This document shows positions 1,847-41,341 of a stretch of DNA of 45,842 bases, piece after piece. The translations under genes were made by a program, and so were the position numbers. Location: positions 1 through 45,842 of the forward strand of contig JAFGQW010000205.1 of the NCBI GenBank assembly GCA_016935485.1. The letters are read 5' to 3'. Every line of letters starts with the position of its first letter. The stretch's first letter is position 1. Below the pieces are notes generated by a model. The model was not told the DNA's origin and searched no databases. It saw nothing but the letters and a program-made list of their open reading frames with translations. This DNA is from Planctomycetota bacterium (GTDB taxonomy: Bacteria > Planctomycetota > JAFGQW01).

Positions 1847-2262
1847 AGCTTCGGTCTCCTGCGCACCATCTTGCAGCGAATCGGGAACTTGTGCGCGGCC
1901 CGGTTCAGCGCCATCTTCGCCCGATCCTCCGTGAGCCCCTGGACCTCGAAGATCACGGTCCCGGGGCGCACCACGGCCGCATAGTACTCGGGCTCGCCCT
2001 TGCCCTTGCCCATCCGGGTCTCGGCCGGCAGCCCGGAGACGGGCTTGTGGGGAAAGATGCGGATGAAGAGCTTGCCCTCGCCCTTGACGATCTGGTTGGC
2101 CGCGATCCGGGCCGCCTCGATCTGGCGGGCGGTGACCCAGGCCGGATCGAGGGCCTGAAGGCCGAAATCCCCGAACTCGACCGTGTGGCCGCGGTGGGCA
2201 TTGCCCTTCACGCGGCCTCGCTGCTGTTTGCGGTACTTAACCCGCTTTGGCATCAGCGCCAT
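1843..2262 (-). CDS. rplP: 50S ribosomal protein L16
   Basis: [51 protein letters not shown]...[16 protein letters not shown]. Confidence 0.97.
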
Positions 2263-2920
2263 CGGTCGCCGTCCCTCTCCGCTTGGCCATCGGATACTCG
2301 CCGAGATAGATCCAGCACTTCACGCCGATCGTGCCGTACGTGGTGTGCGCCTCGGCCAGCCCGTAGCTGATGTGGGCCCGCAGCGTCGACAGCGGAATCC
2401 GCCCCTGGCGCTGCTTCTCCTGGCGGGCCATCTCCGCGCCGCCCAGCCGCCCGCCGATGTGGATCTTGCAGCCCAGCGCCCCGGGCACCTGCATGGTCGT
2501 CTGGATCGACCGCTTGAGCGTCCGCCGGAAGCTCTGGCGCCGCTGGAGCTGCTCCGCCACGCTCTCGGCGACGAGCTGCGCGTTGAGCTCCATCTTGGAG
2601 ATCTCCTTGATCTTCAGCTCGAGATCCGCGGAGCCGGCGAGATCCCGGAGATCGTCCCGGAGCTTGTCCACCTTGGCGCCCTTCTTGCCGATCAGCACCC
2701 CCGGTCGCGCGGTCTGGACGATCACCCGGATGTTCTCGCCGCGGCGCTCGATCTCCACCTCGGGAATCGCGGCGAACCCGTAGTTCTTCTTGATGTGCTC
2801 GCGGATCTTGTGGTCCTGGACCAGGAACTTGCCGAAGTCCTGCTTGGTCGCATACCAGCGCGAGCGCCATTCCTCGGTGATCCCGACCCGGAATCCGGTC
2901 GGATGGACTTTCTGCCCCAT
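2237..2920 (-). CDS. rpsC: 30S ribosomal protein S3
   Basis: [45 protein letters not shown]... Confidence 0.97.
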
Positions 2921-3387
2921 TATCCTTCGGCCCCCTCTCCCGTCGGGCTCCCGGCCGGCGCGCTCGGCTCCGGGGCCGCGGCCGCACGCCGCGCCTTCGG
3001 ACGGCGCCCGGCGCCGCGCGCGCCGCGCGCCACCGCCTCCTCCTCGGCTTCGGCCAGAGCCACGTGGATGTGGCTGCGCCGCACCTTGATCGGCATGTAA
3101 CGTCCGCGCGGACCGGGCACGTAGCGGAACCCCGGCAGATCCGGCCCCTCGTCCACCCAGGCGCGCGCCACGTACAGGCGGTTGAGATCGACCTCCTGGT
3201 CCTCACGATCCTCCGCACTGGCCAGCGCGGCCCTGATCACCTTGGCGGTCATGACGGAGGCGCGCTTGTTCGTGACCCGGAGCAGCTCCAGCGCCTGGTT
3301 CACGGGGCGCCCCCGGACGAGATCCACGACCCGCCGGGCCTTGCGGGCCGCGATGGGCGCGAACCGATGCGATGCCTGAAACTCCAT
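2920..3387 (-). CDS. rplV: 50S ribosomal protein L22 (C-terminally extended)
   Basis: FAPIAARKARRVVDLVRGRPVNQALELLRVTNKRASVMTAKVIRAALASAED...; operon position. Confidence 0.95.
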   Translation of the reverse strand: MEFQASHRFAPIAARKARRVVDLVRGRPVNQALELLRVTNKRASVMTAKVIRAALASAEDREDQEVDLNRLYVARAWVDEGPDLPGFRYVPGPRGRYMPIKVRRSHIHVALAEAEEEAVARGARGAGRRPKARRAAAAPEPSAPAGSPTGEGAEG

Positions 3388-3451
3388 GACAACCTCGTCG
3401 CAACTCGAGCCCGCCCCGCGGCGGGCAGGATGGTGTCCGAGCGGCGGTCGC

Positions 3452-3715
3452 TCACTTCTTCTGGCTGTGACCGCGATAGGTGCGGGTGGGCGCGAACTCG
3501 CCCAGCTTGTGACCGACCAGCTCCTCCGTCACGTAGACCTTGTGGAAGATCCTGCCGTTGTGCACCATGAACGTGTAGCCCACCATGTCGGGCACGACCG
3601 TGGAGGCCCGCGCCCAGGTCGTGATGGGCTCTTTCGAGCCCTGTTCCTTGCGGCGCTTGAGGTGCTTCATCACCTTGGCGTCCACGAAGGGCCCCTTCTT
3701 CAGGCTCCTTCCCAT
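3452..3715 (-). CDS. rpsS: 30S ribosomal protein S19
   Basis: [21 protein letters not shown]...[51 protein letters not shown]. Confidence 0.97.
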
Positions 3716-3793
3716 GCGCGCGTCCTCTCGAACCAGACCTCCTCGAAGCCGCCGCCGCGGGACTGCCGCCCGCCGGCGCCACCGGCCTCCTCG

Positions 3794-4630
3794 CTACTTC
3801 CTCTTCTTCTTGCGCCGCAGGATGTACTTGCTCGAAGTCTTGCGCGGATTGCGCGTCTTGCCGCCCTTGGACAGCTTGCCCCAGGCCGAGCACGGATGGC
3901 GCCCGCCCTTGGTGCGGCCCTCGCCACCGCCCATCGGATGGGAGACCGGATTCATGGCCGTGCCGCGCACATGCGGGCGGCGGCCCTTCCAGCGGGAGCG
4001 GCCCGCCTTGCCGAGCTTGACGAGGTTGTGCTCCGGATTGGACAGCGCGCCGATCGTGGCGCGGCAGTTGAGATGGACCTTGCGCACCTCGCCGCTCGGC
4101 AGCGTGAGGATCGCGTACTCCCCCTCCCGGGCCATGTAGTTGATGGCGCTGCCGGCGCTCCGGCCGAGCTGGCCGCCGCGGCCCGGACTGAGCTCGACGT
4201 TGTGCACCACGAGGCCCACGGGAATGTCCCTGAGCCGGTTCGCATTGCCGTCCCTGGGCTCGGCGCCCGGACCGCTCATCAGCAACATGCCCGGCTTGAC
4301 CCCCCGCGGCGCGAGGATGTAGCGCTTCTCGCCGTCGCGGTAGTGGAGCAACGCGATGTAGCACGTCCGGTTGGGATCGTACTCGATCGAGTGCACCCGG
4401 GCAGGCACGCCCTCCTTGTCCCGCTTGAAGTCGATCAGACGGTACTGCCGCCGGGCGCGGCCGCCGCGCTGCCAGCTGGTGATGTGGCCGTGCGCGTTGC
4501 GGCCGCCCGTCTTGGGCAGCTTGCGGAGCAGCGACTTCTCCGGCCGGGTGCGGGTGAGCTCCTCGCTGTGGAGGATCACGCTCCCCTGGCGGCGTCCGGG
4601 CGAGGTGGGCTTGTAATACTTGATGGTCAT
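3794..4630 (-). CDS. rplB: 50S ribosomal protein L2
   Basis: [13 protein letters not shown]...[31 protein letters not shown]...[17 protein letters not shown]. Confidence 0.97.
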
Positions 4631-28667: not shown

Positions 28668-28890
28668 CCGAACCCCCGGGCCACAACGAGCCGCCGGCAC
28701 CCCAGGCCGACGGAGCCTGCGGCGTGCGGCTCGGTGACGGGGATGGCGATCGGCTGTTTTCGACTCCACGCCGGCCGGCCGGCATGGTAATCGTCTTGCA
28801 GGTGCGCCAGCGGGGCCGGGCCCGCCGCCGCACCACGCGAGAGCTTGCGGATCGATCCAGGCCGAGGGGCGGCCGGCGAGGACGGTGAGG

Positions 28891-29337
28891 ATGCGCGCCG
28901 TGATCCAGCGGGTGAGTCGGGCCGAAGTGGAGGTGGCGGGCCACTGCGTAAGCCGGATCGACGGGGGCTTGCTCGTGCTGCTCTGCATCGAGAAGGGCGA
29001 CGACGCGGTACGGATCGATCGGGCGGCGGCGAAGATCGCGGGACTGAGGTGCTTCGCCGACGCGCAGGGCCGGATGAACCTCGATCTCAGCCAGATCGGC
29101 GGCCAGGTGCTGGTCGTGCCGCAGTTCACGCTCGCCGCGGAGCTCCAGCACAAGGGACGGCGTCCCGGCTTCGATGCGGCGGCGCCGCCGGCGCAGGCCG
29201 CAGCGCTGTGCCACCGGTTCTCGAGCCGCCTCGCCGAGGCGGGATTGACCGTACGCACCGGGGAGTTCGGCGCGCACATGGCGGTGCATCTCACCAACGA
29301 TGGCCCGGCGACCTTCGTCTACGAGGACCGCGGCTGA
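28891..29337 (+). CDS. dtd: D-aminoacyl-tRNA deacylase (DTD family, variant motif)
   Basis: MRAVIQRVSRAEVEVAGHCVSRIDGGLLVLLCIEKGDD...GRMNLDLSQIGGQVLVVPQFTLAAELQHKGRRPGF...TNDGPATF. Confidence 0.93.
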   Translation: MRAVIQRVSRAEVEVAGHCVSRIDGGLLVLLCIEKGDDAVRIDRAAAKIAGLRCFADAQGRMNLDLSQIGGQVLVVPQFTLAAELQHKGRRPGFDAAAPPAQAAALCHRFSSRLAEAGLTVRTGEFGAHMAVHLTNDGPATFVYEDRG

Positions 29338-29345
29338 TCGCCGCC

Positions 29346-30473
29346 CTACTCGCGGTGGTCGGGTGGGCGCCCCGCGCTGCGGCCCTGCAGATCGGCGAGC
29401 CACCCGCGCACCCGCTCCCGCTGTTCTCCGCCGAGAGCCAGATAACGGGTCCAGTGGTGAGCAGCCTGCTCGCTGAAAGCGCTGGCCCGGCCGGCCCCCC
29501 TGGCCTCCGTTCCGGCAGTCAGGCGCGCGAGATTCTCGTAGGCGATCCCGAGATTGAAATGCGCGTCGGGACACTCCGCGTTCTCCGCGACCGCCTCCTC
29601 GAGCACGCTCACGGCCTTCGGGTACTTGCCCCGCGCCATGAGGATCTCCGACAGGTTCACCCGGGCGGCATACCGGAGCGAACAGCGCTGCTCGTACCGT
29701 CGGAGCTGCTCCAGGGTCAAGACCACATCGCGGCGGTGGATTGCCCGCTCCAGCTCCTCCGGCGCGATGGTGAGCACGGTCGCGTAGGCGTGAAACGCCC
29801 GCTCCTCGTCTCCGACCGCCATGCCGTACTTGAGCCAGTGCAGTGCGTCCTTCGGGCAGAGTTGCAGGTAGTGCTCGTACTGTTTGACCGCCGCGGCTTC
29901 ATCGCCGTTGCGGAAGTGGAGTCTGGCGAGCGCCAGGCGGGCCTCCGGCAGATCCGGATCCAGAGCCACCGCGCGGCGCAGGTGGATCTCGGCCTGCTCG
30001 CGATCCGCGCGGTAGAGTCGCTCGAATCCCAGCCCGAAGTGCGCCCACGCCAGACCGGGATCGGCCTCCACGGCGCTCTCGAGCTGCGGGATTCGGTCGG
30101 CGTCGTCCGCCAGCCGCGCGCCGAGCGCATGCCACAGGGCCGACGGCTCCTGATTGCGCTCGTGCTCCTGGCCCACCCCCATCCCCTGGTACTCCTGGCG
30201 GACCTCCGTCTCCTTGCCCAGCGCGATCATCGTGTCCTGGTAGAGGAGGTGCGCTCGCACGAAGCGCGGCGAGGTCTCGCGGACCGCGCGGAGACGGGCC
30301 ACCGCCTGCGGCAGATCGCCGCGGTCGAGCGCGGCGAGCGCGGCCTCCCACTCCGCTTGCGCCGCTGGAACCGGCTGCTGCAGCGCCGGATCGCACCGCG
30401 CGCCGAGTCGACAGCCCCCGATAGCCGCGACGGCCAGGATCGCCACGACCGCGCGGCAGACGCGCCGGCTCAC
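29346..30473 (-). CDS. TPR-repeat lipoprotein
   Basis: GTG start; signal peptide/lipobox AVVAILAVAAIGGC; TPR-like WAHFGLGFERLYRADREQAEIHLRRAVALDPDLPEARLALARLHFRNGDEAAAVKQYEHYLQLCP. Confidence 0.8.
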   Translation of the reverse strand: MSRRVCRAVVAILAVAAIGGCRLGARCDPALQQPVPAAQAEWEAALAALDRGDLPQAVARLRAVRETSPRFVRAHLLYQDTMIALGKETEVRQEYQGMGVGQEHERNQEPSALWHALGARLADDADRIPQLESAVEADPGLAWAHFGLGFERLYRADREQAEIHLRRAVALDPDLPEARLALARLHFRNGDEAAAVKQYEHYLQLCPKDALHWLKYGMAVGDEERAFHAYATVLTIAPEELERAIHRRDVVLTLEQLRRYEQRCSLRYAARVNLSEILMARGKYPKAVSVLEEAVAENAECPDAHFNLGIAYENLARLTAGTEARGAGRASAFSEQAAHHWTRYLALGGEQRERVRGWLADLQGRSAGRPPDHRE

Positions 30474-30985
30474 TGCAGCGGCCCCTCCCGGTAGTCCCCG
30501 CGAAACACCGCCGTGTTCCCGTTGAGCTCCATGCCGACGGCGTGGGTGACCCGACGGTTGTCGGCCAGGTCGAGGAAGACCACGGTTCCGCGCACCTCGA
30601 GTCGCACCCGATCGCCGTCCGGAGGGAAGACCACCAGGATATGCTCGGCCTCGCGGATCTCCAGCCCCTCGGCGAACTTCGCCCGCGCCAGGCCGAACGC
30701 CTCCTTCATCTTCTTGCCGTCGGCCGTCCAGCGCTTCATCTCGTTGCCCGCGAGAAAAAGCTCGGCTTCGAGGTGGAGCGGAAGCTCCATCCGGACCTCC
30801 CGCGCCAGCAGGACCCGCCTTTCCGCGCGGAGAAACGCCTCGCCCGGAACCGGAGGATAGGCGTGGCGGACCGGCGGGCCCTCCGCGGGCGGGGCGGACG
30901 AGCTGCAGCCGACCCCCACGACACCCGGCGACAGAGCGACGAGCACGACGAGCATCGGACCGGTCCACGAGCGACTGAAATGCAC
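30470..30985 (-). CDS. Small putative lipoprotein of unknown function
   Basis: GTG start, signal peptide MLVVLVALSPGVVGVGC(SSS); stop overlaps start of the TPR lipoprotein (GTGA). Confidence 0.6.
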   Translation of the reverse strand: MHFSRSWTGPMLVVLVALSPGVVGVGCSSSAPPAEGPPVRHAYPPVPGEAFLRAERRVLLAREVRMELPLHLEAELFLAGNEMKRWTADGKKMKEAFGLARAKFAEGLEIREAEHILVVFPPDGDRVRLEVRGTVVFLDLADNRRVTHAVGMELNGNTAVFRGDYREGPLQ

Positions 30986-31458
30986 GTTCCGTCCTTCCCG
31001 AATCAGCGGGCTTCCCTCGACCGCGGATCCCTTCCGACCAGCGCGCCGGCGAGCCGGGCATTCGCGTCGGATCCGGGACCGCTGGGAACAGCCCTCATCG
31101 TAGCGCGGGCTTCGCGCAAAACCCACAGCCATCGGCCATCCGCGGTCCGCTCGCACCCCGATGCCGCCAGCCAGGCGGACAGCCTGCGGCCCGACGCGCC
31201 TGCCCGTTCTTCGGTATCCTGGCTGCGGGTGCCTGCCGGGCTTGCGGTGCGTCCCGCAACCGATGCCGGCCAAGCGACTTGCAGGTTCCAGCCCGCCCGC
31301 GAAGACGTTCGGACCGCACAGTATACTGACATCGACCAGCCCACGAAAGCCCCGGCCGGCCCGCGGCGGCGGTGGGCTCGCGCGGGGCGCTGGGCATGCC
31401 GCGGCCTGCCAGCAGCGACCCTCCGCGTGCCTCCGAACCCCGGTCGGCGCACGGGGAA

Positions 31459-31506
31459 TCGGCCTCGACTCCGCAGCGCGGATCGGCCTTGACTCCACCG
31501 CGCGGA
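31459..31506. repeat. Imperfect tandem duplication, 2 x 24 bp
   Basis: tcggcctcgactccgcagcgcgga / tcggccttgactccaccgcgcgga, 3 mismatches. Confidence 0.8.
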
Positions 31507-31517
31507 TCAGATTGAAT
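31489..31517 (+). promoter_or_regulatory. Candidate promoter of the repeat-lipoprotein/mla cluster
   Basis: TTGACT-N17-TTGAAT on + strand; -35 lies in the second copy of the 24-bp duplication. Confidence 0.3.
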
Positions 31518-31744
31518 GACGGCGTTAGCGGACCGGATGTCTGGGTGGTCATCCGGCCGGCGCCACGTCGGGCAGGATCGCGAGTGCCGGGCGCACCCGC
31601 CGACGGACGGTTTGTGGTTTCTATCCATGCGCCTGCCGTGCGGCGGCCCGATGGCAGACGAGTGGCACGCCGTGCGCGGGAAGCCCATCGTGCCGGGACG
31701 GCTTGCGGCCCAGCGCTAGTCCCGCTTCCGCTCCGGAACGGATA

Positions 31745-33334
31745 ATGCGAGACAAGAGGTTCGGAGCTGCGCGTCTTTCGGGCCCAGTAACGGCGCGGCG
31801 GGGGGGGGGCGCGGCGCGCCGGCAGCCGCCGCCGGCGCGCGTGGCCGCGGCACGTCGCTCCCTCGGCCACCTTGCGCTGCTCGCGCTGGTCGCCGTGCTT
31901 GCCGCCGGCTGCCGGGCCGTCGAGATCGATCTCTATCCGCTCCTCCGCACTGGACCGGTCGACGACTGTGGCGGCTGGGCGTGGGAGGCGCTCGGACCTC
32001 TGGTCTACTTCCACGAGGACCACCCTGACGGCAAGGCTCCGTGCCGGGAGTGGGGCATCCGACCCCTCTTCTCCCACCGCTTTCAGACGGGCAGCGCCCG
32101 CCGCGAGACGGAGGTCGTCTGGCCGCTCGGCCGGTTCCGGCGCGACCCCTCCGGGTGGGAGGACCGGATCCTGCCGCTCTACTGGCACTGGGGCCACACC
32201 ACGTCTGGCGTCGAGGAAAGCTCGTTCTTCCTGCTTCCCGTCTTCTTCCGGCGTACCGGTGTCCTCGGCACGAGCTGGGCCCTGTTCCCATTGTATGGCC
32301 GGGTCGAGCGCTTCCTCGGGATGGACGCAGTCTCGTTCGTGTTGTTCCCGCTGTACGCGTCGCACCGACGCGACCAGAGCACTTCCCACCACGTGGTCTG
32401 GCCGATCTTCGGCTGGGGGTCGGGGCCGCAGCACGGCTGGTACCGCATCTTCCCGTGGATCACCCGCTCCTGGGCGGAGGGCGACCACGACTCGCAGACC
32501 TACCTGTGGCCCATCGTGAACATCAGCCACGATCTCGGCCGCACGGGCCGCCCCCGATCGAGTGTGCTGATCTGGCCTTTCTACGGCTCCTGGACGCGCG
32601 CACAGGCCGCGGGCTGGACCGTGCTGTTCCCGCTGCTGCGCGCCGAGGAGGACCGGCAGAAGTCGTCGGGAGAGCGCAACCTGCCGTGGCCGTTTTACCA
32701 GGCATGGTGGAGCCCCCGAGAAGAGGGCTGGCGGATCTGGCCGCTCTACGGGCGCTACGCGTCCCGACCTTCCGCGAGCGGCTCCTCCCAGCAAAGCCAG
32801 TTCCTCCTGTGGCCGTTCCTGTGGCGTCGCGCCTATCAGTACCTCGACGAGCGACACGAGGAGTTCCGCGTGGTACCGGTCTTTCACCACGGCACCTGGA
32901 CCGACCGGCACGGCGGCGGCACCCGCTGGATGGTCTTCCCGCTCGCCGACGGGGAGCGCCGTGCGGAGGGCTCCGGCAAGTTCGCGATCGGTACCCTGTT
33001 TCCCATCCGCCCCTGGAACGACGCCGTCCAGGCGCACTGGTCGGTCTTCCTGAGTCCTTACCTCCACCGGTGGTGGGCCGACGGCCGCGCGCGTGCCCAG
33101 ACGATCCTCGGCCTGTACCGCCGCTACGAGGCCCCAGGGTTCGTCCGCTGGACGGTGCCGCTCCTCTACGCGCACCGCGCGAGCCGCCGCGGCTCGCTCG
33201 ACCAGTTCCTGCTCGGCGCCATCCGCTGGGAGGTGGCGCCCACGGGTGCCGCGCGCCTGAGGATTCTCGGCGTGCCGATCCCGTTCGGGCGCGGCCCGGC
33301 GCCGGATCCGCCCGTGCTCGCGGAGGACGGCTGA
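31745..33334 (+). CDS. Putative lipoprotein with about 20 [hydrophobic/aromatic]-[FWL]-P-[hydrophobic] repeats, function unknown
   Basis: Lipobox LALLALVAVLAAGC; repeats such as VVWPLGRF, ILPLYWHW, LFPLYGRV, LFPLYASH, VWPIFGWG, LWPIVNIS, IWPFYGSW, PWPFYQAW, IWPLYGRY, LWPFLWRR; alternative GTG start at 31841; stop overlaps mlaE start. Confidence 0.75.
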   Translation: MRDKRFGAARLSGPVTARRGGGAARRQPPPARVAAARRSLGHLALLALVAVLAAGCRAVEIDLYPLLRTGPVDDCGGWAWEALGPLVYFHEDHPDGKAPCREWGIRPLFSHRFQTGSARRETEVVWPLGRFRRDPSGWEDRILPLYWHWGHTTSGVEESSFFLLPVFFRRTGVLGTSWALFPLYGRVERFLGMDAVSFVLFPLYASHRRDQSTSHHVVWPIFGWGSGPQHGWYRIFPWITRSWAEGDHDSQTYLWPIVNISHDLGRTGRPRSSVLIWPFYGSWTRAQAAGWTVLFPLLRAEEDRQKSSGERNLPWPFYQAWWSPREEGWRIWPLYGRYASRPSASGSSQQSQFLLWPFLWRRAYQYLDERHEEFRVVPVFHHGTWTDRHGGGTRWMVFPLADGERRAEGSGKFAIGTLFPIRPWNDAVQAHWSVFLSPYLHRWWADGRARAQTILGLYRRYEAPGFVRWTVPLLYAHRASRRGSLDQFLLGAIRWEVAPTGAARLRILGVPIPFGRGPAPDPPVLAEDG

Positions 33335-34128
33335 TGGGACTGCTGCACCACACCGGACGCGTGGTGGCCGATTACTGCACGGGCGCCGGCTACGCCATCC
33401 TGCTCATGCTGCGGGCCGCGCGCCACATCGACGGGTCCTTCCGGAAGATTCCGGAGATCGCGGGACACCTCTACGTCTACGGCATCCGCACGTTCCCGGT
33501 CACCGCCGTCATGGGAATCTTCTTCGGCGCCATTCTCGCGCTGCAGACCGGCATCGAGCTGGACAAGTTCGGCCAGGTCGAAGCCATCGGCATGGTCGTC
33601 TCGGCCGCCATGTGCCGCGAGATGGGCCCGTTCATCACCGGGCTGGTACTGACGGCCACCGTGGGCAGCAACATGGCGGCCGAGATTGGCACGATGCGGG
33701 TCTCGGAGGAGATCGATGCTCTCGAGATCATGGCCATCGACCCGGTGCGCTTCCTCGTCATGCCGCGACTGCTTGCGCTGGTTCTGGTCTGTCCGATCCT
33801 GACGATCCTGGTCGATTTCCTCGGCGTGACCGGCGGGATGTTCGTGTCGGTCGCCCAGCTCGGCGTGGCGGGCGAGGTGTACCGCGAGCAGGCGCTCGAG
33901 GTTCTGCGCTACTCCAGCACGATCTTCGATCTACCCAAGGACGTCTACACGGGACTGGCCAAGTCGTTCGTGTTCGGTCTGACGATCGGGACCGTCGGGC
34001 TCAGCGCCGGCATGCGCGCCGAGGGCGGCGCACTCGGGGTCGGCCGCGCCGTGCGCCGGGCGGTCATCAACAGCCTGCTCCTGATCATCATCCTCGGCTA
34101 CTACATGACCTGGATCTGCTACCGATGA
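33334..34128 (+). CDS. mlaE: MlaE-type ABC transporter permease (phospholipid/lipid transport)
   Basis: FPVTAVMGIFFGAILALQTGIELDKFG...VSAAMCREMGPFITGLVLTATVGSNMAAEIGTMRVSEEIDALEIMAIDPVRFLVMPRLLAL. Confidence 0.95.
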   Translation: MGLLHHTGRVVADYCTGAGYAILLMLRAARHIDGSFRKIPEIAGHLYVYGIRTFPVTAVMGIFFGAILALQTGIELDKFGQVEAIGMVVSAAMCREMGPFITGLVLTATVGSNMAAEIGTMRVSEEIDALEIMAIDPVRFLVMPRLLALVLVCPILTILVDFLGVTGGMFVSVAQLGVAGEVYREQALEVLRYSSTIFDLPKDVYTGLAKSFVFGLTIGTVGLSAGMRAEGGALGVGRAVRRAVINSLLLIIILGYYMTWICYR

Positions 34129-34883
34129 TCCGCCTGGTGAAGGTCTGCAAGCGCCTCGGGGGCCAGAACATCCTCCGCGAACTCACGCTGCACGTCGAGC
34201 GGGGCGAGGTCTTCGCGATCATGGGCGGCAGCGGCACCGGCAAGTCCGTGACCCTCAAGCACATGGTCGGCCTGCTCGAGCCCGACCGCGGCGAGGTCTG
34301 GATCGACGGGGCGAACCTGGCCGTCCTCAATCGCGCCCAGCTCAAGGGACTCCGGCGGCGCTTCGGGTACCTGTTCCAGTCGGGGGCCCTCATCAACTGG
34401 CTCAACGTCGGGGACAACGTCGCACTCCCGCTCCGGGAGCACACGCGGCTCGGCCGCACGGACATCCAGCAGCGCGTCGCGGAACGTCTGCGCTGGGTGC
34501 GGCTGATCGGCGACGAGCACAAGATGCCCGCCGAGATCTCCGGCGGCATGAAGAAGCGCGTCGGACTCGCGCGCGCCATCGTGCTCAATCCGGACATCGT
34601 GCTCTACGACGAACCGACCAGCGGGCTCGATCCCGTCACCGCCCGCGCCATCCGCGCGCTCATCCGCGAGGTGAACGACCGGCTCGAGGCCACCAGCGTC
34701 ATGGTGACGCACGACATCCTGGACGCGACCGATACCGCGGACCGGATCGGGTTCCTGTTCGACGGGCGCATCGAGTTCGTCGGTACACCCGCGGAGGTCG
34801 AGCGCACCGACAACGCCCGGGTGAAGAACTTCCTGAAGGGGCTGGACGACCAGACGTCGGTCGCGGAGGCCGTCCCCTCCTGA
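34125..34883 (+). CDS. mlaF: MlaF-type ABC transporter ATP-binding protein
   Basis: IMGGSGTGKSVTLKHMVGLLEPDRGEVWIDG...ISGGMKKRVGLARAIVLNPDIVLYDEPTSGLDPVTA; ATGA overlap with mlaE. Confidence 0.95.
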   Translation: MIRLVKVCKRLGGQNILRELTLHVERGEVFAIMGGSGTGKSVTLKHMVGLLEPDRGEVWIDGANLAVLNRAQLKGLRRRFGYLFQSGALINWLNVGDNVALPLREHTRLGRTDIQQRVAERLRWVRLIGDEHKMPAEISGGMKKRVGLARAIVLNPDIVLYDEPTSGLDPVTARAIRALIREVNDRLEATSVMVTHDILDATDTADRIGFLFDGRIEFVGTPAEVERTDNARVKNFLKGLDDQTSVAEAVPS

Positions 34884-34939
34884 GGTGGCCGATGGAGCGG
34901 CAACGTTCCCGGAGGACCCACGCGACCAAGGAGGCACGC

Positions 34940-36136
34940 ATGAACCTCTCCCGCTACGCCGCTGTGGGGCTGCTGTTCCTCGCGGCGCTCGTGCTGCTCG
35001 GGGTGGTGACCATGAAGGTCACCAGCGTCGAGGACCTGCTGGGCAGGAACACCTACTTCCGCGAGATCGAGTTCCCGGGCAGCCTTGCCGACCGTCCCGG
35101 GGAGCGCGGCAAGGGTGGGGTTGGCGGTCTCAGGCGCGGCGACCCGGTCCGGGTGTCCGGCGTCCAGGTCGGCCGGGTCGAGGAGGTCCGCCTGCGCCCG
35201 ATCGAGCTGGAGGCAGCCGCCGCGCGGCGCCGCTTCCTGGTCCGGGTGCGCGTGCAGCTCCGCAGCGACCTTCGGCTCTGCGAGGGCTACTCGATCCGCA
35301 TCACCGACCAGTCACTGCTGGGCTCCAAGCAGATCGAGATCGACCCCGGCGCCGGCCCGGAAACGCGCGACGTGCCGCTGCGGGGCGCGCTGCTGCCCTC
35401 GGCGCTGGAGTCCCTGGGCGAGATCGTCGACCGCAATGCCGACCACGTCCACCAGATCATCCAGAACGTCACCGAGATCTCTGCCGCCGTCCGCCGCGGC
35501 GACGGCACGATCGGCCGGCTGCTCATGGAGCCCGCGCTCCACGACAAAGTCGTGGCCGCTGTGGACCGGGCCGAGAACATCCTCAAGGCCGTAGAGGAGG
35601 GGCCCGGCCTGGTCAGCACGCTGCTCTTCGACCGCGAGCTGCGCGCCGATCTGCAGGTGGTCGCACAGTCAGCGCGCGAGGTGGCGGAGGAGCTCGCCCG
35701 CGGGCGGGGGACCCTCGGCCGCCTCCTGAAGGAGGAAGGCCCCTACAACGACCTGCGGCTCGCCATGGCCGACACGCGCGAGATCGTCGCGCGCATCAAG
35801 AGCGGTCAAGGTCCGCTCGGCACGCTCGTGTTCGACGACCTGCTGGCCCGGAACCTCCGGGATTTCGGCGGCGCGCTCGTCGACCGCGAGACGCCGCTGG
35901 GAAAGCTCGTCCACGACCGCGACCTGGCGCAGCGCCTCGACACGCTGATCGCGCAGGCCGGCGAGGTCGTGGCACACGTGCGGAACGGCCGCGGGACGCT
36001 CGGCCGGCTGTTGATGGACGACGCGCTCGTCCGCGGCCTGGAGGGCGCCGTCAGCGCCTTGACCGGAACGATCAACGAGGCGCGCGAGGCCGCGCCGGTC
36101 AATGCGTTCCTGCAGACGCTCTTCATCTGGTGGTAG
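34940..36136 (+). CDS. mlaD: MCE-domain (MlaD-type) periplasmic lipid-binding protein with C-terminal repeats
   Basis: MNLSRYAAVGLLFLAALVLLGVVTMKV...LRRGDPVRVSGVQVGRVEEVRL...LLGSKQIEIDPG; AAGGAGG RBS; six GxGtLGrLl-type repeats. Confidence 0.9.
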   Translation: MNLSRYAAVGLLFLAALVLLGVVTMKVTSVEDLLGRNTYFREIEFPGSLADRPGERGKGGVGGLRRGDPVRVSGVQVGRVEEVRLRPIELEAAAARRRFLVRVRVQLRSDLRLCEGYSIRITDQSLLGSKQIEIDPGAGPETRDVPLRGALLPSALESLGEIVDRNADHVHQIIQNVTEISAAVRRGDGTIGRLLMEPALHDKVVAAVDRAENILKAVEEGPGLVSTLLFDRELRADLQVVAQSAREVAEELARGRGTLGRLLKEEGPYNDLRLAMADTREIVARIKSGQGPLGTLVFDDLLARNLRDFGGALVDRETPLGKLVHDRDLAQRLDTLIAQAGEVVAHVRNGRGTLGRLLMDDALVRGLEGAVSALTGTINEAREAAPVNAFLQTLFIWW

Positions 36137-36144
36137 CCAGCGAC

Positions 36145-36172
36145 CGCTGCCGGGGCATTCGCTCCGGCAGCG
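36145..36172. terminator. Perfect 9-bp hairpin between convergent mlaD and ribE (no U-tract)
   Basis: CGCTGCCGG-ggcattcgct-CCGGCAGCG. Confidence 0.4.
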
Positions 36173-36250
36173 CGCAGAGCGCGCCGCGGGACACGGCGCG
36201 ATGAGGCGGCGCGAAGAAACACGGGCTGCAGGGCGCGGGCTTCGTCGGCG

Positions 36251-36889
36251 TTACGCGTAGCCGTGCTCCGCGAGCTTGCCGCGATCCAGGCCGCCGCCCA
36301 TCGCCTCGAGGAGCTTCGCCACGTACTTGGCCAGAACGTCCGTCTCCAGGTTGACCGGGCTGCCCACCGGCAGGTGGCCCATGTTCGTGCGCTGCAAGGT
36401 CTCGGGGATGAGCGCGCACGTGAAGTCCGCCGGTCCGACGCGCACCAGGGTCAGGCTGATCCCGTCCACGCAGATCGAGCCCTTGGGCACCATCTGCCGG
36501 GTGAGCCGGCGGTCCGTCTCGACGCGGATCACAGTCTGCCCCGGGCCGGAGTCCCGGGCGCGGAGGATGCCGACGCCGTCCACGTGGCCCTGGACCCAGT
36601 GGCCGCCGAGACGATCGCCCAGGCGCAGCGCGCGCTCCACGTTGACGCGATCCCCGACGCGCAACGCGCCGAGGTTCGTGCGCTGGAGGGTCTCCTGGAT
36701 GACGCGGAACGAGCGCCGCGTCCCGTCCACCGCAGTCACCGAGAGGCAGACGCCGTTGACGGCCAGGCTCCCCCCGGGCTTGAGATCGGCAGCGATCGCC
36801 TCCCCGGGATCCACGGTCAAGTCCAGAGCGCCCGCGAGCCGGCGCACCGCCACCACTGGAACCCACGCTTCCACGAGTCCCGTGAACAT
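36251..36889 (-). CDS. ribE: Riboflavin synthase subunit alpha
   Basis: MFTGLVEAW...GGSLAVNGVCLSVTAVDG...FRVIQETLQRTNLG...GGHWVQGHVDGVG...SICVDGISLTLVRV...LIPETLQRTNMG. Confidence 0.96.
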   Translation of the reverse strand: MFTGLVEAWVPVVAVRRLAGALDLTVDPGEAIAADLKPGGSLAVNGVCLSVTAVDGTRRSFRVIQETLQRTNLGALRVGDRVNVERALRLGDRLGGHWVQGHVDGVGILRARDSGPGQTVIRVETDRRLTRQMVPKGSICVDGISLTLVRVGPADFTCALIPETLQRTNMGHLPVGSPVNLETDVLAKYVAKLLEAMGGGLDRGKLAEHGYA

Positions 36890-37054
36890 CGCTCGCCTCG
36901 ATTGCCGTGCCATTGAGCCACCCGCCGGCCCGCAACCCCGGGTGCCGGCTCCCGGTGCGGAAGCGACCGGCCCGCCGTGGCGCGCCCGCCGTATTTCCCA
37001 CGTAACTTCTTTTCTGCCAACGAGTCAAGTCCATGCACCCCGGCGCTTTTTTTC

Positions 37055-37082
37055 TTGACTTGGGGAGGCGGCGGTATACATT
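37055..37082 (+). promoter_or_regulatory. Putative sigma70-type promoter of the trmD-rplS unit
   Basis: TTGACT-N16-TACATT following a T-rich tract; about 120 nt upstream of trmD start. Confidence 0.45.
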
Positions 37083-37203
37083 TTCGCTCCTGCGTTGCTC
37101 GGTAGGGGTGTGCGCTGCGCGCATCCTTCCATCGCCAGAGCCAGCAAGGGCTTGGGGCGCCGGCGCGGCTTTCCCGGTTGCATCACGCGCCTGGAGATCC
37201 ACC

Positions 37204-37947
37204 TTGGACATCCATGTGTTGACGCTCTTCCCGGAGGTCTTTCCGGCCGTTCTCGATGCGAGCATCCTCCGGATCGCCCGCGCGAGCGGCCACCTCCGCG
37301 TCCACCTCCACAACCTGCGCGACCACGCCGCCGACCGGCACCGCTCGGTCGACGACCGGCCCTTCGGCGGCGGCCCGGGCATGGTGCTCAAGCCGGAGCC
37401 GGTCTTTCGCGCGGTAGAAGCGATCGAGGCGGAGCTCGAGCGGCCGGCGCGGCGGATCCTGCTGACCCCGCAGGGCCGGCGGTTCTGCCACGCGCTGGCG
37501 GCCGAGCTCGCGGCGGAGCCGGCGCTCCTGCTGCTGTGCGGTCACTACGAGGGATTCGACGAGCGCATCCGCACCGGACTGGCGCCCGCGGAACTGAGCA
37601 TCGGCGATTACGTGCTGACGGGCGGCGAGCTGCCGGCCCTGGTCGTCATCGATGCGATCGCCCGCCTGCTGGACGGCGTGCTCGGTCACGAGGAGAGCGC
37701 GGCCTCCGAGTCCTTCAGCCACGGGCGGCTGGATCACCCGCACTACACGCGGCCGGTCGAGTTCCGCGGCATGCGGGTGCCCGAAGTGCTCCGCACCGGA
37801 GACCACGAGCGCATTGCCGCCTGGCGTCTGCGTCAGGCCCTGGAGCACACGCGCGTGCGCCGGGGCGATTTGCTGGGCAAGCCCGAGTCCGGGAACGCAA
37901 GCCCCGATCCGGGCCCTGGATTGCACGTCAAGGAAACAGCACCGTGA
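37204..37947 (+). CDS. trmD: tRNA (guanine-N1)-methyltransferase TrmD
   Basis: LDIHVLTLFPEVFPAVLDASILRIARASGHLRVHLHNLRDHAADRHRSVDDRPFGGGPGMVLKPEPVFRAVE...CGHYEGFDERI...LSIGDYVLTGGELPALVVIDAIARLL; TTG start with upstream GGAG. Confidence 0.95.
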   Translation: MDIHVLTLFPEVFPAVLDASILRIARASGHLRVHLHNLRDHAADRHRSVDDRPFGGGPGMVLKPEPVFRAVEAIEAELERPARRILLTPQGRRFCHALAAELAAEPALLLLCGHYEGFDERIRTGLAPAELSIGDYVLTGGELPALVVIDAIARLLDGVLGHEESAASESFSHGRLDHPHYTRPVEFRGMRVPEVLRTGDHERIAAWRLRQALEHTRVRRGDLLGKPESGNASPDPGPGLHVKETAP

Positions 37948-38390
37948 CCACCATCCGCGATGTCGAGCAGAGCTACCTGAAGGCGGAGATTCCCGGCGAC
38001 CTCCGCGTGGGCGATTCCGTGGCCGTCGGACTGCGGATCCGCGAGGGCGACAAGGAGCGCATCCAGACCTTCCACGGCGTGCTCATCGCCAAGCGTCGTT
38101 CCGGCATCCAGGCGACGATCACCGTGCGCCGCATCGTCGCCGGAGAGGGCGTCGAGCTGACCGTGCCGCTGCACTCGCCGCGGCTGGCCGACGTGAAGGT
38201 CAACCGCCGGGGGCGGGTGCGCCGGGCGAAGCTCTACTACCTGCGCGACCGCGTCGGGAAAGCCACCCGGTTGCGCGAGGATCTGCGGGCCTCCGTCGTC
38301 CGCCGTCGGAAAGACGCCGCCAAGGCGCGCACGGAGCCCGCGGCCGAGGATCGCGCCCGGGTCTCGAACGAGCCGACAACACCGGCCTGA
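37944..38390 (+). CDS. rplS: 50S ribosomal protein L19
   Basis: GTG start overlapping trmD stop (GTGA); DSVAVGLRIREGDKERIQTFHGVLIAKRRSGIQATITVRRIVAGEGVELTVPLHSPRLADVKVNRRGRVRRAKLYYLRDRVGKATRLRE. Confidence 0.95.
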   Translation: MTTIRDVEQSYLKAEIPGDLRVGDSVAVGLRIREGDKERIQTFHGVLIAKRRSGIQATITVRRIVAGEGVELTVPLHSPRLADVKVNRRGRVRRAKLYYLRDRVGKATRLREDLRASVVRRRKDAAKARTEPAAEDRARVSNEPTTPA

Positions 38391-38461
38391 CCGCCCCCGG
38401 GCGGGTCACGCCCGGGTGACCCGCCGCGAGCGAACCCAATACCGAGGGAGCCCGATCGACC

Positions 38462-41341
38462 ATGCTGCCCAACCTGGGGACTCGATTCCTGTTCATCGGT
38501 TTCGTCCTGCTGGTCCCGACGCTCATCCTGCTGTTCGGCGGCCCGTTCAACATGGGGCTGGACATCAAGGGCGGCACCTCGCTGATCTACAACGTGCCCG
38601 GCGACCCGAGCGCCGACGAGCTCGGCGACGTCCGGGATGTGATGACCCAGCGCGTCGATCGCCTCGGCTTGAAGGAGATCACGATCACCACCGATGATGG
38701 CCACAATGACATCATCATCGAGCTTCCCGGCATGACGGCCGCCGACTCGGCCACGGTCAAGAGGACGCTGCTGGAGCTCGGCAAGCTGATCTGGGCGATC
38801 GAGGCCACCGAGCAGGAACTGACCGACCCCGTCGAGGGCCTCGGGCCGAAGTTCAACCTCAACCAGTTCCTCCAGGAGGAGGCCGAACGGACCCGGCGCC
38901 TCGTCGAGGCCAACCCCGAGGAGTACGATCCGCGCGGCTACACCGGAGAGCCCGTCCACCTCTACAAGAATCCCGAGAACTTCCGCGTGGCGAGAAGCCC
39001 GGGAGACCCGGAGCTATTCACGTTCTACCCGCCCTACCGGTGGCGGTCGACGAAGCCGGGGCTCGCCGAGGAGGCCCGCTGGAAGGGGCCCGACGTCGGG
39101 GCGGTGGTGCTGAAGAAGCCCGGCACCGTCATCTCTGGCGAGGAGATCGACAACGTCTACCCCAGCACGGGCCGCTTCGAGCCGGTGGTCGCGTTCGAGC
39201 TCAGACCCGAGTCCAAGGACGCCTTCCGCGATCTGACCCGCCGCTACCTCAAGCGCAACCTCTGCATCATCTTCAACGAGCGCCTCGTCACGCGGCCGGT
39301 GATCCAGGCCGTGCTGCCCGGCTCCGGGGTCATCGAGGGCATCAGCGAGCGCGAGGAGATCCGCAAGCTCATCGTCACGATCAAGTCGGGCAGCCTCAAG
39401 ATCAAGCCCGTGCTCTTCATGGAGCAGCAGATCGGGCCGACGCTCGGCGAGGATGCGATCCGCCGCGCCGTGCTCGCCATGGTCGTCGGCTCGGTGGCGG
39501 TGCTCTTCTTCATGCTCTGGATCTACCGTTTCGCCGGCCTGCTGGCCAACGTCGCCCTGCTCGCGAACCTGCTGGTGCTGCTCGGCGTGATGAAGATGAT
39601 GGGGGCGACGCTCTCGCTGCCCGGCATCGCCGGCATCGTGCTCACCATCGGCATCGCCGTGGATGCGAACATCCTCATCTTCGAGCGCGTCAAGGAGGAA
39701 CGCGACAAGGGCAAGACGTTCATCCAGTCCCTCAAGAACGGCTACGACCGGGCCACGGTGACGATCCTGGACGCCAACATCACCACCCTGCTCACCGGGC
39801 TGGTGCTCTACATGTTCGGCACCGGGCCGATTCGCGGGTTTGCGTTCGTGCTCATCGCCGGCCTGATCATCAACCTGTTCACCGCGATCTACATGACGAA
39901 GACCGTGCTGGCCTGGCTGCTCGACCGCAAGCGCATCACCGATCTCAAGGTGGTCCGTCTGTTCACGCCCCCGCAGTGGGATTTCCTGCGGGCCGGCAGG
40001 TTCGCGCTCCTCGGCAGTGCCGGCGCCATCGCCATTGGTCTGTTCTTCTTCTTCTGGGTCCAGGGCGAGAGCATCAAGGGGCTGGACTTCTCCGGCGGCG
40101 CCCTGATGCGACTGCAGCTCAAGGAACCCGTGGACATCGCCCAGTTCCGGACCCGGATGCAGACGATCGAGGGCGTCGACCCGCACCTGGACGTCGTGAC
40201 GGTGCGCGGGGTCGCGGCGACCACGCTGCCAGGCGGACGGGGCTCCAACATCTTCGAGATCAAGCAGAGTCTCGCCCAGGACGACGTCGAGGCCGCCGAC
40301 GCGTTCTTCCAGCGCGTCCACACGGGCCTGGCCGATCTGCTCGCCGACGAGCCGATCATCCCTTACCGCGCGCCCGCGGAGCACCCCTACCAGTACCAGG
40401 GCGCCGGCGGCGACGATCCGGGGCGGGTGCCCGCCTGGCCGCCCGGCAAGACCCCCCAGACGGAGGAGGAGAGGCTGATCGTCCAGGTCCAGCAGGGCTT
40501 CCGGTTCACGGTCAACTTCTACAAGCCCACGGCCCGGTCCATTCTCGAGCAGAACCTCCGGTACATCGAGGTCGCGCCGGCGCAGATCACGCCGCGGGAC
40601 GCGGCGGATGGCGAGGGACGGCACAAGAGCTACGAGGTCTGGTGCACCGCCGGACCGTTCCTGCCGGGAGTGGCGAAGCTGAGCGAGCTTGGCGGGCGGC
40701 TGGCGGTCAAGCTCAAGGAGGAGCGGCCCAATCCGATCCACCTTTCGGAGCCCGTGCCGGTCCAGCGCTTCATCGGACCGCGCGTGGCGAGAGACCTCGT
40801 CAAGAAGGCGATTCTCGCCGTCCTCGTCGCGCTCGTCGCCCTCATGATCTACATCCGCATCCGCTTCCACGACCTGCTCTACGGCATCGGGGCCGCCACG
40901 GCGCTGCTCCACGACGTGCTCCTCACCATGGGATTCATCGCCGTGTTCGACTCGCTGGGGGTGGTCAACGTAAAGATCACTCTGCCGATCATCGCGGCCT
41001 TCCTCAGCCTCATCGGCTACAGCCTGAACGACACGATCGTGATCTTCGACCGGCTGCGCGAGAACCTGGCCCGGGTGAACATGCCGCTCAAGGAAGCCAT
41101 GAACCTCAGCATCGCGCAGTCGCTCACGCGCACGTTCTTCACCTCGCTCACCACGTTCTGCGTGGTGGCGTGCCTGTTCGCGTTCAACTACGGCGAGCGC
41201 GGGGTGCTGGAGGGGCTCGGATTCGCGCTCATGGTCGGGGTCGTCACCGGCACCTACTCGACGATCTTCGTCGCCTGTCCGACCGTGCTGCTTCTCAGCG
41301 CCCTGCGCCGCCGGGGCACGACGGCCGGCAAGGGCTCCTGA
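38462..41341 (+). CDS. secDF: Fused protein translocase subunit SecDF
   Basis: GLDIKGGTSLIYNV...GIAGIVLTIGIAVDANILIFERVKEERDKG...(SecF) GLDFSGGALMRLQL...IGYSLNDTIVIFDRLRENL; one 959-aa ORF. Confidence 0.95.
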   Translation: MLPNLGTRFLFIGFVLLVPTLILLFGGPFNMGLDIKGGTSLIYNVPGDPSADELGDVRDVMTQRVDRLGLKEITITTDDGHNDIIIELPGMTAADSATVKRTLLELGKLIWAIEATEQELTDPVEGLGPKFNLNQFLQEEAERTRRLVEANPEEYDPRGYTGEPVHLYKNPENFRVARSPGDPELFTFYPPYRWRSTKPGLAEEARWKGPDVGAVVLKKPGTVISGEEIDNVYPSTGRFEPVVAFELRPESKDAFRDLTRRYLKRNLCIIFNERLVTRPVIQAVLPGSGVIEGISEREEIRKLIVTIKSGSLKIKPVLFMEQQIGPTLGEDAIRRAVLAMVVGSVAVLFFMLWIYRFAGLLANVALLANLLVLLGVMKMMGATLSLPGIAGIVLTIGIAVDANILIFERVKEERDKGKTFIQSLKNGYDRATVTILDANITTLLTGLVLYMFGTGPIRGFAFVLIAGLIINLFTAIYMTKTVLAWLLDRKRITDLKVVRLFTPPQWDFLRAGRFALLGSAGAIAIGLFFFFWVQGESIKGLDFSGGALMRLQLKEPVDIAQFRTRMQTIEGVDPHLDVVTVRGVAATTLPGGRGSNIFEIKQSLAQDDVEAADAFFQRVHTGLADLLADEPIIPYRAPAEHPYQYQGAGGDDPGRVPAWPPGKTPQTEEERLIVQVQQGFRFTVNFYKPTARSILEQNLRYIEVAPAQITPRDAADGEGRHKSYEVWCTAGPFLPGVAKLSELGGRLAVKLKEERPNPIHLSEPVPVQRFIGPRVARDLVKKAILAVLVALVALMIYIRIRFHDLLYGIGAATALLHDVLLTMGFIAVFDSLGVVNVKITLPIIAAFLSLIGYSLNDTIVIFDRLRENLARVNMPLKEAMNLSIAQSLTRTFFTSLTTFCVVACLFAFNYGERGVLEGLGFALMVGVVTGTYSTIFVACPTVLLLSALRRRGTTAGKGS

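Follow-up and report, generated by a model that had tools for sequence, protein, structure and literature searches.

The window, which is the whole 45,842-nucleotide stretch of Planctomycetota DNA analysed here, carries a gene for a repeat-rich putative lipoprotein followed directly by the three genes of an mlaEFD operon (Table 1). As the initial annotation had read them, the TGA of the lipoprotein gene overlaps the ATG of mlaE (TGATG at 33332-33336), and mlaE overlaps mlaF through ATGA (34125-34128). For mlaD, a start at 34940 is more likely than that of a longer open reading frame from 34892, since AAGGAGG lies ahead of 34940. With MlaE, MlaF and an MCE-domain MlaD together, the locus meets the criterion for an MlaEFD (MCE) ABC transporter operon, and, judged from the sequence, the gene for the repeat lipoprotein accompanies those for MlaE, MlaF and an extended MlaD with a special hydrophobic tail. 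The region 28885-41341 holds dtd, a divergent TPR protein, the repeat lipoprotein, mlaEFD, ribE (on the opposite strand), trmD and secDF, a cluster kept across several Planctomycetota families; the last of these (38462-41341, plus strand) is a single 959-aa open reading frame that reads, on sequence inspection, as a fused SecD and SecF, and a homologous frame is conserved by the operon in relatives. Elsewhere in the same genome there is a second mlaEFD set (locus L140, 5529-8613, contig C46), with a STAS-like open reading frame ahead of it, no repeat lipoprotein and no MlaD tail, as well as a third MlaE match on contig C366.

Table 1. Features of the repeat lipoprotein and mlaEFD genes in the window.
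Feature	Position	Strand	Remarks
Repeat lipoprotein	31745..33334	+	529 aa with the signal peptide; proposed partner of MlaEFD on the outer-membrane side
Signal peptide hydrophobic core and lipobox LAAG-C56	31841..31912	+	Cys codon 31910-31912
Repeat region, units of strand, WPF tip, strand, polar turn	31937..33004	+	residues 65-420
C-terminal part of repeat lipoprotein	33005..33274	+	residues 421-510; one predicted helix and further strands; conserved in family
mlaE, permease	33334..34128	+	PF02405, E 6.6e-65; ATG overlaps TGA of lipoprotein gene
mlaF, ATPase	34125..34883	+	PF00005 (ABC_tran), E 6.2e-31; best NCBIfam model is MlaF, below its cut-off
mlaD, MCE domain and long downstream region	34940..36136	+	PF02470, E 2.2e-13
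Conserved hydrophobic C-terminal tail of MlaD, INEAREAAPVNAFLQTLFIWW	36071..36133	+	proposed docking peptide

The clear lipobox noted initially, LAAGC ending at Cys56, is in place, and the protein meets the criterion for a bacterial lipoprotein, a signal peptide with a lipobox cysteine. The open reading frame is genuine and encodes a probable lipoprotein, with slight doubt about its start: translation may begin further downstream than 31745, for example at the GTG at 31841, because 38 residues come before the hydrophobic signal-peptide core. In a regex survey, a lipobox was present in the window protein and in at least 79 of the 99 homologues of our first set, while a minority lacked a recognisable one, so a lipid anchor is common in the family but not universal. 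The mature protein is 474 residues long, of which 32 are tryptophan, 52 arginine and 18 histidine. The count of about 20 motifs in the initial annotation stands under a relaxed hydrophobic-Pro-hydrophobic pattern, which finds 21 of them (5000 shuffles gave 4.6 +/- 2.0, with a maximum of 13), mostly 17-24 residues apart in the repeat region. It does not stand under the strict pattern [LIV][FW]P[LIFV][FYLW], which finds 7, against 0.06 expected.

The suggested repeat fold took a definite form, an open beta-meander, in both AlphaFold2 prediction and covariation. The models of the window protein (pLDDT 86.1, pTM 0.70) and of one homologue (pLDDT 88.4, pTM 0.74) each have about 45 short strands and one helix near the C-terminus; most of the strands are predicted to be 5-8 residues long, and the connections between them alternate between WPF tips and polar turns. 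In 1264 pairs of neighbouring repeats, covariation showed that strands pair in antiparallel fashion at WPF tips and polar turns alike. A reading of WPF as a mere kink within a strand, as in a taco or a barrel, was ruled out because covariation shows chain reversal at each WPF and no kink-type pairing. An outer-membrane beta-barrel was also rejected, since it needs strands of about 9-12 residues and those predicted here, at about 6, are too short to span a membrane.

With Foldseek, no solved structure matched over the whole protein, TM by query reaching at most 0.23. Single-layer sheets gave the best partial matches, namely TCP10/G-box (TM by target 0.35-0.49), OspA and viral MORN proteins (0.13-0.29); matches to WD40 proteins, teneurins and others were dismissed at TM by query below 0.2. 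The MORN-repeat, TCP10/G-box and OspA sheets have the same kind of antiparallel short-strand meander, but we found no sequence relation to them, and hydrophobic WPF tips are the basis of the unit here. No family member matched the Pfam MORN repeat model, leaving only a partial resemblance of fold.

The initial annotation had not recognised a characterised family, and our searches agree with it. Pfam gave no convincing match for the window protein or 23 other aligned members, NCBIfam gave no family match for 18 members, and the PDB held no relative by sequence; no other function has been assigned. Our literature search found no description of the family, with subscription papers and preprints largely outside its scope. 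The family is new, while the kind of system in which it acts is known. Homologues were found in 27 of 59 genomes of the same phylum (Planctomycetota) by a single-sequence search and in 93 of 196 by a profile search, some of these being only weak matches or long paralogues. Matches, some of them weak, also occurred in 77 of 145 Verrucomicrobiota-phylum and 70 of 198 Desulfuromonas-phylum genomes. Named loci come from Planctomycetota, Kiritimatiellota, Verrucomicrobiota, Lentisphaerae, Desulfuromonas relatives and Dadabacteria. The scan of named genomes used a profile from a four-row alignment; a single-protein query against them gave no match. No homologue was found in viral contigs.

A check of gene neighbourhoods bears out the proposed tie to mla genes: about 90% of loci are linked, and the link spans several phyla and two gene orders. 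In our count set of 104 loci, 100 of them distinct (one, L037, was counted from a partial mlaE at a contig edge), about 90 of the 100 have the repeat lipoprotein gene immediately ahead of mlaE in the same orientation, usually with mlaF and mlaD next. This order is found in Planctomycetota, Verrucomicrobiota, Kiritimatiellota, Desulfuromonas and Dadabacteria. Our first impression that the Desulfuromonas phylum had lost the linkage was rejected, because there the gene sits downstream of mlaD: of the 30 best loci in that phylum, 23 have the reversed order mlaE-mlaF-mlaD-lipoprotein. Together with 12 that have the gene ahead of mlaEFD, these 23, all from the Desulfuromonas phylum, belong to a further set of 40 loci, 3 of which come from genomes already sampled. 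Occurrence on either side of mlaEFD, with different further neighbours, argues for a functional link and not an inherited order. About one locus in ten is unlinked, including two strong members (L038 and L039), and such copies lie amid unrelated genes, for example a glmM-like gene and coaD (named by sequence inspection). On a tree of MlaE, the linked proteins need 2 label changes, compared with 17.6 for shuffled labels; the unlinked MlaE sample was drawn mainly from genomes that lack the family, so the clustering partly follows organism relationships. A single clade of linked MlaE had a p-AU of 0.035, by which a single origin is mildly disfavoured. Based on these data we are nearly certain that the repeat lipoprotein is a partner of MlaEFD. 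Five loci (L050, L112, L113, L117 and L118) have two tandem MlaD matches behind the lipoprotein gene.

In linked operons, MlaD terminates in a hydrophobic peptide that follows a conserved acidic/REQAP segment. Examples are EDAREQAPITTFxSxLFxAF from Planctomycetota, QEQTPITVLGTVLGTVLR from operons with the reversed order and, for the window, EAREAAPVNAFLQTLFIWW. With a strict pattern, the tail was present in 70 of 75 linked MlaDs and in none of 16 unlinked ones, and 3 of the 5 that this pattern missed carry the tail by eye. We wrote this pattern after inspecting the sequences, so the comparison is descriptive and not a test.

The suggestion that the protein replaces MlaA and MlaC gains support from the distribution of these genes. 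The window's genome has neither. Among the 59 Planctomycetota genomes, MlaA occurs in 6 and MlaC in 3, and none of the 3 with MlaC has the repeat lipoprotein. The avoidance of MlaA is strong in the Desulfuromonas phylum, where 10 of 198 genomes have both proteins and 34 would be expected (Fisher p 2.6e-13, uncorrected for relatedness); in the Planctomycetota relatives, where MlaA is rare, the anti-correlation is not significant (2/30 vs 4/29, p 0.42). All 10 sampled genomes that have MlaA but no repeat lipoprotein carry a short MlaD of 149-183 aa. Of the sampled genomes that lack both, 7 of 10 have a long MlaD ending in repeated-strand, barrel-like sequence, a judgement that rests on the sequence pattern and PMC10665443, without a model. 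Within one phylum, the repeat lipoprotein, MlaA and a barrel-ended MlaD would be three largely alternative outer-membrane ends. The planctomycete G013 (locus L156), whose MlaE falls in the linked clade, has no repeat lipoprotein, and the C-terminus of its MlaD is strand-rich. In another genome, a 908-aa open frame (G291:C190, about 2141-4519) has at least 6 MCE-domain matches and is LetB/YebT-like.

MlaEFD occurs in most diderm phyla, whereas MlaA, MlaB and MlaC are mainly proteobacterial and the MlaD of the PVC group has no barrel (PMC10665443), which has left the connection of those transporters to the outer membrane unexplained. A 2017 survey of MCE gene neighbourhoods was restricted to Proteobacteria and to Pfam domains (PMC5561183) and therefore could not have named this family. 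The family is a concrete and widespread candidate for the missing outer-membrane part, and the MlaD tail is a testable contact.

We propose, with a probability of roughly 0.7 and without any experiment, that the repeat lipoprotein serves a variant Mla (MCE) lipid transporter as its component on the outer-membrane side, where it docks the MlaD tail and does an MlaA-like job. The protein would be exported and usually lipid-anchored in the inner leaflet of the outer membrane, and the WPF hairpin tips of its long open meander would form a continuous aromatic edge. Six MlaD chains would build a needle across the periplasm, with their tails (EDAREQAPI-TFxSxLFxAF type) docking on the lipoprotein and the outer membrane. 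By analogy, the aromatic edge would lie against or in the inner leaflet and pass lipids to or from the MlaD channel, the lipid-facing side being inferred; MlaF and MlaE would energise this passage, which could run either way. In this way the lipoprotein would stand in for MlaA or for the C-terminal barrel in Veillonella-type MlaD. We have good confidence in a role on the outer-membrane side, although this rests on genomic complementarity only and the location is inferred. Lipid transfer by the repeat sheet itself is also an inference, without experiment, and we hold it plausible, at about even odds. Equally balanced is our view of the wider idea that this is a third kind of Mla outer-membrane terminus, in which an aromatic hairpin edge in the inner leaflet delivers lipids straight into the MlaD channel and which replaces MlaA or the MlaD barrel across Planctomycetota, Verrucomicrobiota, Desulfuromonas relatives and others. 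The genomes with both MlaA and the repeat lipoprotein, 10 in number, and the neglect of genome relatedness in the co-occurrence counts are caveats on the role as a whole.

Like MlaA (PF04333), which works with MlaC and a short MlaD, the repeat lipoprotein would be the outer-membrane lipoprotein end of an MlaEFD transporter. MlaA is a helical ring, whereas the protein described here is predicted to be an all-beta meander, its partner MlaD is long and tailed, and the window's genome lacks MlaC; no family member matched PF04333. With the Veillonella-type MlaD, which carries its own C-terminal beta-barrel (PMC10665443), the system shares an extended MlaD that reaches the outer membrane without MlaA or MlaC, but here a gene of its own would encode the outer-membrane part, and MlaD terminates with a short hydrophobic tail. 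PqiC of PqiABC is an operon-encoded lipoprotein that forms a ring on the outer membrane and receives the C-terminus of the MCE needle protein PqiB (PMC10897342), and it is from PqiC and the Veillonella barrel that we draw the analogy of a separate dock for a tailed MlaD. PqiC, however, is a small octamer-forming domain, in contrast to about 500 aa of repeats, and the partner here is the ABC transporter MlaEF and not PqiA; no Pfam or NCBIfam match to PqiC-type families was seen among family members.

The same meander could instead be stretched along or beside the MlaD needle as a bridge from outer to inner membrane, with lipids moving along its aromatic edge. By simple arithmetic, about 45 strands at 4.8 A would cover about 215 A if flat, near the roughly 230 A of PqiB (PMC10897342), and the WPF tips stand in a continuous row; MlaD, however, is already long and would itself form a channel, and single-layer sheets have no closed hydrophobic groove. 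The pTM values of 0.70-0.74 cannot separate an extended from a coiled form, and among the listed Foldseek matches there is no lipid-carrying bridge protein save a weak ApoB100 (TM by query about 0.12), so we regard a bridge as unlikely. MORN proteins, which have a similar type of sheet, are protein-interaction modules and do not bind membranes (PMC7725318). This counts against an edge in the membrane and would suit a non-lipid accessory, a scaffold for the assembly, spacing or peptidoglycan contact of MlaD, and the linkage and tail data are compatible with any partner of MlaD. The complementarity with MlaA and with barrel-bearing MlaD nevertheless indicates a step at the outer membrane, and a scaffold also seems improbable to us.

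Much harder to sustain is a merely historical gene cluster, with the protein in some unrelated envelope role. It is true that dtd, ribE, trmD and secDF are likewise syntenic in Planctomycetota without a functional relation, and that some copies of the lipoprotein gene are unlinked. But the link holds in other phyla, where the gene can be on the opposite side of mlaEFD and the other neighbours differ, and a specific MlaD tail accompanies it, which leaves this explanation highly improbable.

Two very long repeat paralogues, with open frames of 1467 aa (L054, 5267-9667) and 1028 aa (L057, 5991-9074, minus strand), are not linked to mla genes. Their existence suggests that the repeat sheet may have other uses.
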